Notes under the pieces: model-generated
Told to the model about the DNA's origin: nothing
Databases searched by the model: none
What the model saw: only the letters and a program-made list of their open reading frames with translations
Made by a program: the position numbers and the translations under genes
Source of the DNA: Mariprofundus sp. KV
GTDB lineage: Bacteria > Pseudomonadota > Zetaproteobacteria > Mariprofundales > Mariprofundaceae
Direction: 5' to 3'
DNA: 64,000 nucleotides
Assembly (NCBI RefSeq): GCF_013387475.1
Contig: NZ_VWNB01000003.1
Span: forward strand, 124,001 to 188,000
Part shown: positions 54,428-59,802 of the stretch, one piece after another
Numbering within the stretch: position 1 is the first letter of the stretch
Layout of the letters: every line of letters begins with the position of its first letter

Positions 54428-54443
54428 TGGCATATGGCCTGCT
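54428..54443 (+). promoter_or_regulatory. Putative sigma-54 promoter of the ammonium cluster
   Basis: The sequence TGGCAT-ATGGC-CTGCT has the GG and GC elements at the correct -24/-12 spacing, 51 bases before the porin start. NtrC with sigma-54 is the known control of glnK-amtB operons. I could not find a convincing NtrC site upstream. Confidence 0.55.
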
Positions 54444-54494: not shown

Positions 54495-55481
54495 ATGAAA
54501 GTACAAAATAGTGCAATGGCAGCGCTACTGGGACTAGGCCTGATGGCCTCTCCATCAATGGGGTGGTCTGGTAGCTTGCAGGATAAACTGGATAAAATTC
54601 AAATCAGTGGTTTTGTCGATGCTGCTTACTTTCAATCTAATGGTCCATTAAAGGGCGGTATTACCCTGGATCAGGTGGAGATCGATATCGAATATTCCGC
54701 CGGCAATGTGGGGCTGCGTTTCGACCTTGAATCTACTGCTGATGGCTTTGGTGCCACACCGTTTGAGCAAGGCTATGTATATTACACGCTTCCAGGCATT
54801 GGTGATGAGGGGCTGACATTCACCTTTGGTAAGTTTAATGCACCTATCGGTTGGGAACTTCTCGATGCGCCAGATATGTATCAGTATTCACATGCGCTGG
54901 TGTTTAACAATGCACTGCCAACAAATCTGACAGGTGTTTCGCTTGCGACAAGCTTCGGAATTGCAGACCTGATTGTTTATGCTGCAAACGGCACCGATAC
55001 CAATGCCGCTAATACTACAACGGGTGTGAAAACCTTCGGTGGCCGACTGGGAATTACTCCGATTGAAGGCATCAATATCGGTTTCTCTTATCTGACTGGT
55101 GATAACCTTGGTGGTGTATATCAGGCGTTGAAGTACAGAACTTATGATATTGATCTGACACTGGAGCTGGTTGAAAACCTGATTATCGGTGCTGAATTTG
55201 CTAAAAATAAGAACTGGACTGCATTGAATGCCACATCTCAGGGCTATTTCGTGACCGCCCACTACGATTTCACAGAAATGCTTGGTGTAACAGGCCGATA
55301 TGGTCAATGGGATCCTGACACTGCTGCTGTAGGCAAAATGACCGCAACAACAGTTGCGTTAACTGCCGCGCTGGGTGATGGCCTGGGTGCACTGTTCGAG
55401 TTCCGTAATGACAGGGACAAGACTGTTGTGCCAAGCACAAGCATAAACAGCTATGCCTTTGAAATGACCTATAGCTTCTAA
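54495..55481 (+). CDS. Outer-membrane porin-like protein of the ammonium cluster
   Basis: 328 residues. A signal peptide (MKVQNSAMAALLGLGLMASPSMGWSG region) precedes a strand-rich barrel: IQISGFVDAAYFQSNG, FTFGKFNAPIGWELLDAP, TFGGRLGITPIEGINIGFSY, and a terminal Phe (AFEMTYSF). The FGKFNAPIGWE wording is typical of BBP2/OmpL-like porins. Located directly ahead of the PII and AmtB genes and behind the candidate sigma-54 site, it may let ammonium or small nitrogen compounds through the outer membrane. Confidence 0.8.
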   Translation: MKVQNSAMAALLGLGLMASPSMGWSGSLQDKLDKIQISGFVDAAYFQSNGPLKGGITLDQVEIDIEYSAGNVGLRFDLESTADGFGATPFEQGYVYYTLPGIGDEGLTFTFGKFNAPIGWELLDAPDMYQYSHALVFNNALPTNLTGVSLATSFGIADLIVYAANGTDTNAANTTTGVKTFGGRLGITPIEGINIGFSYLTGDNLGGVYQALKYRTYDIDLTLELVENLIIGAEFAKNKNWTALNATSQGYFVTAHYDFTEMLGVTGRYGQWDPDTAAVGKMTATTVALTAALGDGLGALFEFRNDRDKTVVPSTSINSYAFEMTYSF

Positions 55482-55563: not shown

Positions 55564-55917
<354 letters not shown>

Positions 55918-55930
55918 AAGGAGGTAAATC

Positions 55931-57211
55931 ATGGAACCAATTGCAACAACACAGTTGGCAGGAGATATCCTGCAGACCAAATATGCACTGGATACTTTTT
56001 ACTTTCTGGTGATGGGTGCATTCGTGATGTGGATGGCCGCCGGCTTCTCCATGCTGGAGGCTGGCCTTGTCCGCTCAAAAAACACGGCCGAGATTCTGAC
56101 CAAGAATATCGTGCTCTATTCCATCGCATGTATTATGTACATGCTGATCGGTTATAACATTATGTATGGTGATTCGATCTCATCGATCATCCCGGGCATC
56201 AGTTTCGGTCTCGGTGGTGATAATGAGGCGGCTGCAGTGCTGGCCGGTGGTGAAGATGCGCCGTACTACTCCAACCTGTCGGACTTCTTCTTCCAGGTGG
56301 TGTTTGTAGCTACCGCGATGTCGATTGTTTCCGGTGCCGTTGCCGAGCGCATGAAGCTGTGGGCTTTCTTTGCCTTTGCTATCGTATTTACCGGTATTAT
56401 CTATCCGACTCAGGGTATGTGGAAGTGGGGCGGCGGTTTCCTTGATGAAGCAGGCTTCCTTGATTTTGCAGGTTCGGGTGTGGTTCATATGGCGGGTGCT
56501 GCTGCAGCACTTGCAGGTGTGCTGCTGCTTGGTGCTCGTAAAGGCAAGTATGGTAAGGATGGCTCGGTGAATGCGATTCCGGGTGCGAACCTGCCGATGG
56601 CTACACTGGGTACCTTCATTCTCTGGATGGGTTGGTTTGGTTTTAATGGTGGTTCAGAGCTGAAGGTCTCCGACATCGCTGAAGCCAATGCAACAGCCAT
56701 GGTCTTTGTAAATACCAATATGGCTGCTGCAGGTGGATGTGTTGCAGCTCTGCTGCTTGCTCGTCTCTGGTTTGGTAAAGCCGATCTTACCATGGCGCTC
56801 AATGGCGCTCTGGCCGGCCTTGTGTCGATCACCGCTGAACCTCTGACGCCATCACCTGAACTGGCTACTCTGATTGGTGCTATCGGTGGTGCGCTGGTTG
56901 TCATCTCGATCATTACACTTGATACCAAATTCAAGATCGATGATCCGGTAGGTGCGATTTCGGTGCATGGCGTGGTTGGTCTCTGGGGACTGCTGGCGGT
57001 ATGTCTCTCCAATCCGGATGCAACACTCTCAGCGCAGTTGCTCGGTATCGGTGTGATCTTTGCCTGGGTGTTCATCTGCAGTCTGATTGTCTGGATGATT
57101 GTGAAGGTAATCATGGGTATTCGTGTCTCCGAAGAGGAGGAGTACGAAGGTCTGGATGTTGGTGAGTGTGGTCTGGAGGCCTATCCGGAATTCACTCAGA
57201 ACAGGAAGTGA
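55931..57211 (+). CDS. amtB: Ammonium transporter 1
   Basis: 426 residues with 11 or more membrane segments. The Amt signature DFAGSGVVHMAGAAAALAG carries the first pore His, and SVHGVVGLWG the second. An N-terminal AGDILQTKYALDTFYFLV stretch precedes the first segment, and a conserved cytoplasmic tail (GIRVSEEEEYEGLDVGECGL) offers the PII contact. It is translated right after glnK (13 bases). It imports ammonium at low external levels. Confidence 0.95.
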   Translation: MEPIATTQLAGDILQTKYALDTFYFLVMGAFVMWMAAGFSMLEAGLVRSKNTAEILTKNIVLYSIACIMYMLIGYNIMYGDSISSIIPGISFGLGGDNEAAAVLAGGEDAPYYSNLSDFFFQVVFVATAMSIVSGAVAERMKLWAFFAFAIVFTGIIYPTQGMWKWGGGFLDEAGFLDFAGSGVVHMAGAAAALAGVLLLGARKGKYGKDGSVNAIPGANLPMATLGTFILWMGWFGFNGGSELKVSDIAEANATAMVFVNTNMAAAGGCVAALLLARLWFGKADLTMALNGALAGLVSITAEPLTPSPELATLIGAIGGALVVISIITLDTKFKIDDPVGAISVHGVVGLWGLLAVCLSNPDATLSAQLLGIGVIFAWVFICSLIVWMIVKVIMGIRVSEEEEYEGLDVGECGLEAYPEFTQNRK

Positions 57212-57274
57212 TACCCTTTGAGGTAAAATCCTGTTGCTGGATGTTTTAGGCAACAGATCTTTGATGGATGGGTT

Positions 57275-57298
57275 GGGAGCGGATTTTTATCCGCTCCC
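57275..57298 (+). other. Hairpin after amtB, with a second at 57321-57343
   Basis: Stem GGGAGCGGA/TCCGCTCCC with an A/T loop, followed by GATTCCCGTTTTA, a weak terminator. A second hairpin CATGGCT/AGCCATG ends 18 bases before the next start. Both lie in the 150-base gap before the unassigned gene and could attenuate it. Confidence 0.5.
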
Positions 57299-57361
57299 GA
57301 TTCCCGTTTTAATTTGGGCTCATGGCTGAGGTCAGGAGCCATGTTTAACAAGGAGGTTTAG

Positions 57362-58459
57362 ATGAGCAGTTCACTGTTGCTGCATGCATTATCACTTCAT
57401 GATCGAATGCTGGAGCCTAATCAGCTGCCGGTATCAGGGCATGTGTGGGGCTATGATAAGGAGTGTACCAGTCGCGAAGAGTTTGTCGGCAATGCTCTGA
57501 ATATGCTCTCACTGCTTGGCATTCAAGATGCCGAAATCAGTTGGGAAGATGATATTATGGCCTTTGATGTGAAGCGTAAGGGGCAACCGGTAACGGTGAT
57601 TATCTCACTGCAGGATGATTCACTGACCTCTGATTACCTCTATTTTCTGGGGATCTGGCTGCGCCCGCAATCGGAGAGCCTCTCCGAAGTGGAGCTGCTC
57701 AGTGATCAGATCGACTGGCAGGAGGAGGAGCTGCTGCAGCCGGCCATCTCCTATTCAGTTCGTTTTACTGCAGAGCCACTGCAGGTACCCGACATCAGGA
57801 GATTGTTGGGTAGTGAGATCTTTGCTCAGCGCATTTATGGCGATGCTTTTTATCTCTGTGGTATGACAGAAGCTTATCCCATCCCTTCCGGCAAGTTTGT
57901 GATCTCTCCGGCAAGTCATGCGCAGAATCATCAGCGTTATGAGATTCGTCATGCGCTCTATTCACTGCGTAATCTGATGGGGTTGATGGGCAGTGTGATG
58001 AATCTCTATGATCGTATCAGCGAGAAGGGCGACGCGACCACGCTGTGTCAGGAGATGATGGATTTGATGGCTGCTGTTGAGCGTCAGACGCCAACACCGG
58101 CTGAGTGGGATGCGCTTGTCAGATGTAATGGCTCCATTGCACTGCGACTGGCATCGGAGTCCAATGAGAGTCGTAAGCTACACAGCAGGCTTAAAGGGGT
58201 ACGCCGACTCTTCGATGTTATTCTTGAAGAGCTGGATATCTCTGAAATGCAGGGCATGGCTTCACTGACCAAACGTATGCTGGCCCCGTTTGATCACGTT
58301 AAGGATAGTCTTCATAGCTTTGAAGATATGCTTAATCAGGTTGAAAAGCAGTCGCAGATTCTGCAGCCGTTGATGCACTCTCGCATGCTGGCAGGCCAGC
58401 AGCTGCTGCTTGAAAAGCTTATCGCATCGAATCAATTGCAGGGTGAGCGTGAGAAGTAA
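57362..58459 (+). CDS. Unassigned 365-residue cytoplasmic protein between two ammonium transporter genes
   Basis: I do not recognise this protein. It has no signal peptide or membrane segment. The first half (about 1-190) looks like a mixed alpha/beta domain (HVWGYDKECTSREEFVGNAL, VTVIISLQDD, YFLGIWLRPQ). The second half (about 200-360) is nearly all helical, with leucine-rich coiled-coil-like stretches (RRLFDVILEELDISEM, SFEDMLNQVEKQSQIL). AAGGAGG lies 5 bases before the ATG, so it is well translated. Its place between amtB and a second amt suggests a role in ammonium uptake or its control, which is inference from position. Confidence 0.75.
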   Translation: MSSSLLLHALSLHDRMLEPNQLPVSGHVWGYDKECTSREEFVGNALNMLSLLGIQDAEISWEDDIMAFDVKRKGQPVTVIISLQDDSLTSDYLYFLGIWLRPQSESLSEVELLSDQIDWQEEELLQPAISYSVRFTAEPLQVPDIRRLLGSEIFAQRIYGDAFYLCGMTEAYPIPSGKFVISPASHAQNHQRYEIRHALYSLRNLMGLMGSVMNLYDRISEKGDATTLCQEMMDLMAAVERQTPTPAEWDALVRCNGSIALRLASESNESRKLHSRLKGVRRLFDVILEELDISEMQGMASLTKRMLAPFDHVKDSLHSFEDMLNQVEKQSQILQPLMHSRMLAGQQLLLEKLIASNQLQGEREK

Positions 58460-58526
58460 ACGATGCCGGAGCGTGATGCTGTTATTGCCTGACGATCTGT
58501 GGCGTCTGTTGAAGCGCTGAACTAAT

Positions 58527-58542
58527 TGGCGGTTTCATTGTA
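58527..58542 (+). promoter_or_regulatory. Weak sigma-54-like element before the second amt
   Basis: TGGCGG-TTTCA-TTGTA has GG at -24 but GT in place of GC at -12. It lies 48 bases before the start. Offered as a candidate only. Confidence 0.25.
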
Positions 58543-58590
58543 AGTGAGTAGAAGTAATAATTCGGATAATAAATAGGGAGTTTTATACAA

Positions 58591-59802
58591 ATGAATACAG
58601 CAGGTTTTGATGTCTTTTTTCTCACCCTGGGTGCAGCCATGGTGTTGGCGATGCATGCAGGTTTCGCTTTTCTGGAAGTGGGGACGGTACGCAAGAAAAA
58701 TCAGGTGAATGCGCTGGTGCGTGTGATAACCGATTTTGGTTTCTCTACGGTTGCCTATTTCTTTGTTGGTTTTGCTGTTGCTTACGGCATCAACTTTTTT
58801 GCGCCGGTTTCAGAACTTAACAAGCTCGCGGATATCTCCAACGGTTACAAAATGGTGCACTTTTTCTTTCTGCTTACCTTTGCCGCAGCTATTCCGGCAA
58901 TTATCTCCGGCGGCATCACCGAACGTGTTAAATTTTGGCCCAATGCATTGGCAACGGTGCTGTTGGTAGCTGTGATCTACCCGTTTTTCGAAGGTATGAT
59001 CTGGAATGGTAATTTCGGTTATCAGGCGTGGCTGGAAGCGAACTTTGGTGCTGCCTTCCATGACTTTGCCGGTTCTGTCGTGGTTCATGGTATGGGCGGC
59101 TTCCTTGCACTGGGTGCAGTGGTGTTGCTTGGCGCACGTCGAGGCAGATATAACCGGGAGGGACGCATGATGGCCATCCTGCCATCCAATATTCCTTTCC
59201 TGGCGCTTGGTTCATGGATTCTCTGTGTCGGATGGTTCGGCTTTAACGTGATGAGTGCAGGAACAGCAGAGGGTGCATCGGGTCTTGTCGCGATGAACTC
59301 ACTGCTGGCGATGGTTGGTGGTCTGCTGGCAGCGCTTGTGGCTGGTAAGAATGATCCGGGTTTTGTGCACAATGGCGCGCTGGCCGGACTGGTGGCGATC
59401 TGTGCCGGCTCCGATATCGTACATCCCATTGGAGCACTGACTATTGGCGCGATTGCAGGTGTTGTTTTTGTGATCGGTTTTGAATTTGTTCAGATCAAGC
59501 TGAAAATTGATGATGTGCTGGGAGTGGTTCCACTGCATGGCGTTTGTGGCGCATGGGGCGGTATTGCTGCCGGTATCTTTGGCACGACAGCCATGGGTGG
59601 TGCAGGTGGTGTGACATTCATGGCGCAGTTGATCGGCACCGTTACCGGCGTTGCTGTTGCTGTTGCCGGTGGTTTTGCTGTCTATGGTCTTGTTAAGGCA
59701 ACTATGGGTATCCGGCTTTCGGAAGAGGATGAGCATATGGGGGCGGATCTGGCTATCCATAACATCAGTTCAACACCTGAGCAGGATATGGCGAATCACT
59801 GA
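58591..59802 (+). CDS. amt: Ammonium transporter 2
   Basis: 403 residues. Lacks the longer N-terminal extension of transporter 1 and starts directly with the first segment (FDVFFLTLGAAMVLAMHAGF). It has FHDFAGSVVVHGMGG with the first pore His, VPLHGVCGAWGG with the second, and a tail IRLSEEDEHMGADLAIH that fits PII docking. Clearly diverged from the first copy, so it is an old paralogue rather than a recent duplication. GGGAG lies upstream; a terminator follows. Confidence 0.94.
   Translation: MNTAGFDVFFLTLGAAMVLAMHAGFAFLEVGTVRKKNQVNALVRVITDFGFSTVAYFFVGFAVAYGINFFAPVSELNKLADISNGYKMVHFFFLLTFAAAIPAIISGGITERVKFWPNALATVLLVAVIYPFFEGMIWNGNFGYQAWLEANFGAAFHDFAGSVVVHGMGGFLALGAVVLLGARRGRYNREGRMMAILPSNIPFLALGSWILCVGWFGFNVMSAGTAEGASGLVAMNSLLAMVGGLLAALVAGKNDPGFVHNGALAGLVAICAGSDIVHPIGALTIGAIAGVVFVIGFEFVQIKLKIDDVLGVVPLHGVCGAWGGIAAGIFGTTAMGGAGGVTFMAQLIGTVTGVAVAVAGGFAVYGLVKATMGIRLSEEDEHMGADLAIHNISSTPEQDMANH

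Follow-up and report, generated by a model that had tools for sequence, protein, structure and literature searches.

What does the protein encoded between the two ammonium transporter genes of Mariprofundus sp. KV do? The window analysed here (the whole stretch of 64,000 nucleotides from contig NZ_VWNB01000003.1) contains an ammonium-uptake cluster in which a reading frame, which we designate gene X, separates the two transporter genes. The features of the cluster are as follows:

54428..54443, + strand, candidate sigma-54 promoter (TGGCATATGGCCTGCT, GG-N10-GC) preceding the operon porin-glnK1-amtA (weighted scan and relatives)
54495..55481, + strand, outer-membrane porin of the BBP2 family at the head of the cluster (Pfam PF07642, E 5.7e-20)
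55576..55917, + strand, PII protein, GlnK1 (PF00543, E 8.6e-32)
55931..57211, + strand, ammonium transporter 1, marine subtype, amtA (TIGR03644, 681 bits against a cut-off of 514)
57270..57303, + strand, terminator-like hairpin with a weak U-tract (CCGTTTTA) in the amtA–X spacer; relatives without an adjacent X usually have a longer U-run
57362..58459, + strand, gene X, a soluble 365-aa protein with a predicted CorA/DUF3422-like architecture without membrane helices (ORF, AlphaFold, Foldseek, orthologues and dN/dS)
58460..58590, + strand, spacer, the site of glnK2 in most relatives; the gene is absent here (comparison of relatives)
58591..59802, + strand, ammonium transporter 2, amtB (PF00909, E 1.5e-86)

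The genes on the 3′ side of the cluster in the window are tolB-, pal- and cpoB-like by inspection.

The reading frame of X starts with ATG, comprises 365 codons and follows a good ribosome-binding site (AAGGAGG), exactly as given in a preliminary description of this DNA. The dN/dS values of 4 orthologue pairs (0.06–0.14) reveal purifying selection; therefore, X is a real, retained gene. The orthologues share 41–86% identity and many invariant residues, the C-terminal ends of the full-length copies nearly coincide, and X evolves faster than the adjoining glnK1, amtA and amtB. In genome G010, a frame change close to a contig end splits the copy, which could reflect either faulty assembly or a pseudogene.

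The AlphaFold model of X (mean pLDDT 81, pTM 0.78) agrees with the preliminary description in having a mixed N-terminal domain and a helical C-terminal half, and hydropathy analysis of the protein, described there as cytoplasmic, shows no membrane segment, the maximum over 19 residues being 0.93. A Foldseek search of the PDB returned CorA, ZntB and Mrs2, members of the PF01544 superfold, as 17 of the first 19 matches (best E 3.1e-3, probability 1.00). The TM-scores are low, about 0.27, so that parts and topology are matched and the exact domain arrangement is uncertain. The model is nevertheless strong grounds for assigning a CorA-type soluble fold to X. By contrast with CorA, X has neither the membrane pair nor the GMN motif, in sequence or in the model, and has no sequence match to CorA; being without membrane helices, X itself cannot be a channel. 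Residues 7–33 are strongly conserved and yet in part poorly modelled, an indication of an interface for binding or oligomerisation.

The family DUF3422 (PF11902), which we take to be a CorA-like membrane family, was chosen for comparison with X from the sequence pattern. Its AlphaFold model (pLDDT 89) independently matches CorA, Mrs2 and CmaX. Matching the two models by eye for the order and lengths of their elements revealed that (i) both are predicted to begin with a strand, a helix and three strands, repeated, and then two helices; (ii) both continue with a helix of 42–46 residues, a short strand pair and a long stalk helix; (iii) the stalk starts with a similar motif, RMLAP in X and RRLEP in DUF3422; and (iv) the stalk is 63 residues long in X versus 97 in DUF3422, and X lacks the second membrane helix. 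The stalk helix of X stops at residue 364, where that of DUF3422 would enter the membrane, and the hydropathy maximum is 0.9–1.6 in X versus 1.8–2.2 in DUF3422. Of the CorA-type architectures, that of DUF3422 comes nearest to X in the order of its elements.

None of 13 X orthologues scored above the Pfam gathering score for PF11902, and a PF11902 search of the window genome gave no match. Profile–profile comparison of X with DUF3422 gave P 0.13–0.19, and in deeper runs the best local match lay in the expected register and did not exceed the controls, which were reversed and unrelated profiles. Comparison with CorA gave P 0.02–0.03, the unrelated control being 0.03, and adding secondary structure left the score unchanged (SS term 0). 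As these comparisons were not significant, they do not establish common descent of X with DUF3422 or CorA, and homology between them appears not to be demonstrable from the sequences. In six X carriers, a DUF3422 gene, whole or in fragments, is present as well, and X is therefore not simply the DUF3422 orthologue. The same observation speaks against X being a decaying DUF3422 or CorA membrane protein that has lost its membrane helices, a view suggested by its DUF3422 order of elements minus the C-terminal membrane pair. The common end point of the full-length copies and the purifying selection also oppose decay, which we consider highly improbable. That every carrier has a conserved form free of membrane helices speaks for a stable function as a soluble protein.

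When whole genomes were searched, 15 of the 78 from the class Zetaproteobacteria contained X, all from the Mariprofundus family, which comprises iron-oxidising marine bacteria. It was found in 0 of the 398 genomes sampled from other proteobacteria, and a GTDB peptide scan returned only 2 matches, both Zetaproteobacteria (CG1_02_53_45 and Mariprofundus micogutta). Searches of IMG/VR and of phages and plasmids returned no X, and sequence searches of Pfam, NCBIfam, PHROG, PADLOC and the PDB with X or its orthologues returned nothing above chance. The profile and sequence searches thus gave no family, just as the preliminary description had recognised none. That description also proposed asking whether X is repeatedly linked to amt or glnK outside this lineage; such linkage is absent from unrelated lineages because X itself was found in one family only.

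Within the family, the conserved core of the cluster is porin-glnK1-amtA-glnK2-amtB, and X lies between amtA and glnK2/amtB in 14 of the 15 carriers. The order porin-glnK-amtB-X-amt proposed earlier is borne out by profile matches for the neighbours, except that glnK2 stands between X and the second amt in 9 of the 14 X-linked relatives. In the remaining carrier (G028), X is unlinked, lies behind rimK-like and M14/aspartoacylase-type peptidase-like genes (by inspection), and forms a long branch as the most diverged copy; the amt cluster of this genome is complete without X. Most relatives have this Amt-PII cluster but lack X in it. The single unlinked copy and these X-less clusters therefore define X as accessory. 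The linkage to amt and glnK holds in the 14 carriers, and X stays in place even where the adjacent amtA was swapped for an Amt of 31% identity. The association of X with amt is persistent, though confined to one family and one site; it is therefore not independent evidence from unrelated genomes, and the linkage may reflect shared ancestry inside the family.

Several replacements were observed in these clusters; in a number of genomes X stays although the head porin or amtA has given way to an unrelated or distant version. An approximately 31%-identical Amt occupies the amtA position in loci L023, L024, L025, L029 and L053 and in several X-less loci, with glnK1, amtB and, in the X-bearing loci, X kept. 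In L041, L043–L048, L050 and L052, smaller outer-membrane-like proteins (about 215–279 aa) stand in for the head porin, and L043–L046 carry a second smaller outer-membrane-like gene between amtA and glnK2, that is, at the site of X.

The confinement of X to one family, its absence from most relatives and its identical site in nearly all carriers would also fit a passenger, namely, a family-specific insertion between amtA and glnK2 that is vertically inherited and has no nitrogen-linked role. We regard a passenger as unlikely: X was kept through the replacement of amtA, the U-tracts upstream of it are weak (described below), and its low dN/dS and many invariant residues show a function, though not which.

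The gene glnK2 is absent from 5 of the 14 X-linked clusters (the window, G012, G033, G003 and G010) versus 2 of the 37 others (G040 and G005; Fisher p 0.013, relatedness ignored). These counts cover loci with a readable region upstream of amtB; G006, whose contig ends there, was left out. The AmtB tree places the losses in X clusters at about four separate points, too few for proof. On this tree, G005 clusters with the X carriers lacking glnK2, and a later loss of X may explain its present state. In G001, a close relative, glnK2 is present, unlike in the window genome; in the MAG CG1_02_53_45 (G016), it is frameshifted (L016, 7083–7419), which makes it a pseudogene or an assembly error. PII genes are kept in all genomes searched, and the window genome has more copies outside the cluster. 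GlnK/PII, the known Amt partner, is encoded next to amtB in the cluster that holds X and differs from X in size and in having an unrelated fold. The more frequent loss of GlnK2 alongside X hints that the two could overlap in role, and slightly helps the idea of X as a regulator or partner. A stronger proposal, that X is a new soluble regulator which arose from a CorA/DUF3422-like membrane protein and replaces a dedicated GlnK, hence the repeated loss of glnK2, seems to us decidedly unlikely.

The preliminary description included a candidate sigma-54 promoter, which is credible and recurs in relatives; it precedes the porin and not X. A sigma-54-type site lies approximately 60–160 bases upstream of the porin where the porin start could be placed, and most other loci have one at an equivalent position, with perfect copies in several relatives. 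The exact consensus occurs in the window with no excess over chance; the support for the promoter comes solely from its conservation across relatives. No conserved sigma-54 site was found directly upstream of X. In nearly all loci, a GC-rich hairpin follows amtA, ahead of the next gene. The U-tract of this hairpin has a median of 4 T of 8 where X is directly next versus 6 where X is far or absent (p 0.014, relatedness ignored; an alternative stem end was used to score 2 X-less loci, and one yielded no hairpin). In some relatives, the gap from the hairpin to X is only about 20–30 bases, which leaves no room for a promoter of X there. The weaker U-tract where X adjoins suggests that X is expressed by read-through from the sigma-54 operon.

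The terminator is the second part of a conserved two-hairpin RNA element on the 3′ side of amtA (57212–57303 in the window), which was also observed in loci L020, L021, L022, L023, L024, L040, L041, L027, L029, L053, L054 and L056. The first hairpin often precedes the terminator in relatives with and without X alike. Its stem varies widely in sequence with the pairing kept, and its loop is C-rich, CACCCGG being invariant in seven aligned sequences (fold z about −2 to −7); the window copy is without the CACCC loop motif. An Rfam search of the cluster and its relatives gave no match. The element is positioned like GlnZ, a 3′-UTR sRNA of glnA (PMC9731577), and is a candidate nitrogen-related 3′-UTR sRNA.

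The gene, its conservation, its linkage and its lack of membrane helices were observed directly. Our preferred reading, held tentatively, is that X is a cytosolic CorA/DUF3422-like accessory regulator of ammonium uptake, which is expressed by read-through and partly overlaps GlnK2. X would be an optional part of the nitrogen-limitation ammonium-uptake cluster in the Mariprofundus family. Transcription would start at the sigma-54 promoter that precedes the porin and pass through the hairpin after amtA into X; the soluble and probably oligomeric product would regulate ammonium uptake at the Amt-PII (GlnK) step, in a role partly shared with the GlnK2 encoded alongside in relatives. Amt or PII is a plausible partner, and position, likely co-expression and the loss of glnK2 favour a regulatory role. 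Because the gene is confined to one family, with X-less clusters and an unlinked copy, the regulator or partner idea is a working hypothesis.

Nearly as likely as this accessory role is a nitrogen-stress role apart from Amt, in which X would be co-regulated with ammonium uptake under nitrogen limitation and act elsewhere, for instance on divalent cations or in a different nitrogen-stress function, without contacting Amt or PII. The CorA-like fold, the sigma-54-headed cluster with its possible read-through, and the place of the unlinked G028 copy behind the rimK-like and peptidase-like genes are consistent with such a role. That X persistently lies flanked by two amt genes and next to glnK2 favours the accessory regulator instead; the one exception, the unlinked copy, is also the most diverged.

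The comparison provides a fold-level label for a protein left blank by sequence searches. Amt transporters are gated by GlnK, and to our knowledge few dedicated cytosolic Amt partners other than GlnK have been described. If X is an accessory regulator, a membrane-protein fold would have been reused as a soluble protein, and a channel-less CorA-like protein beside two Amt genes, where the local GlnK has been lost repeatedly, would offer the Mariprofundus family as a testable case of partner replacement.
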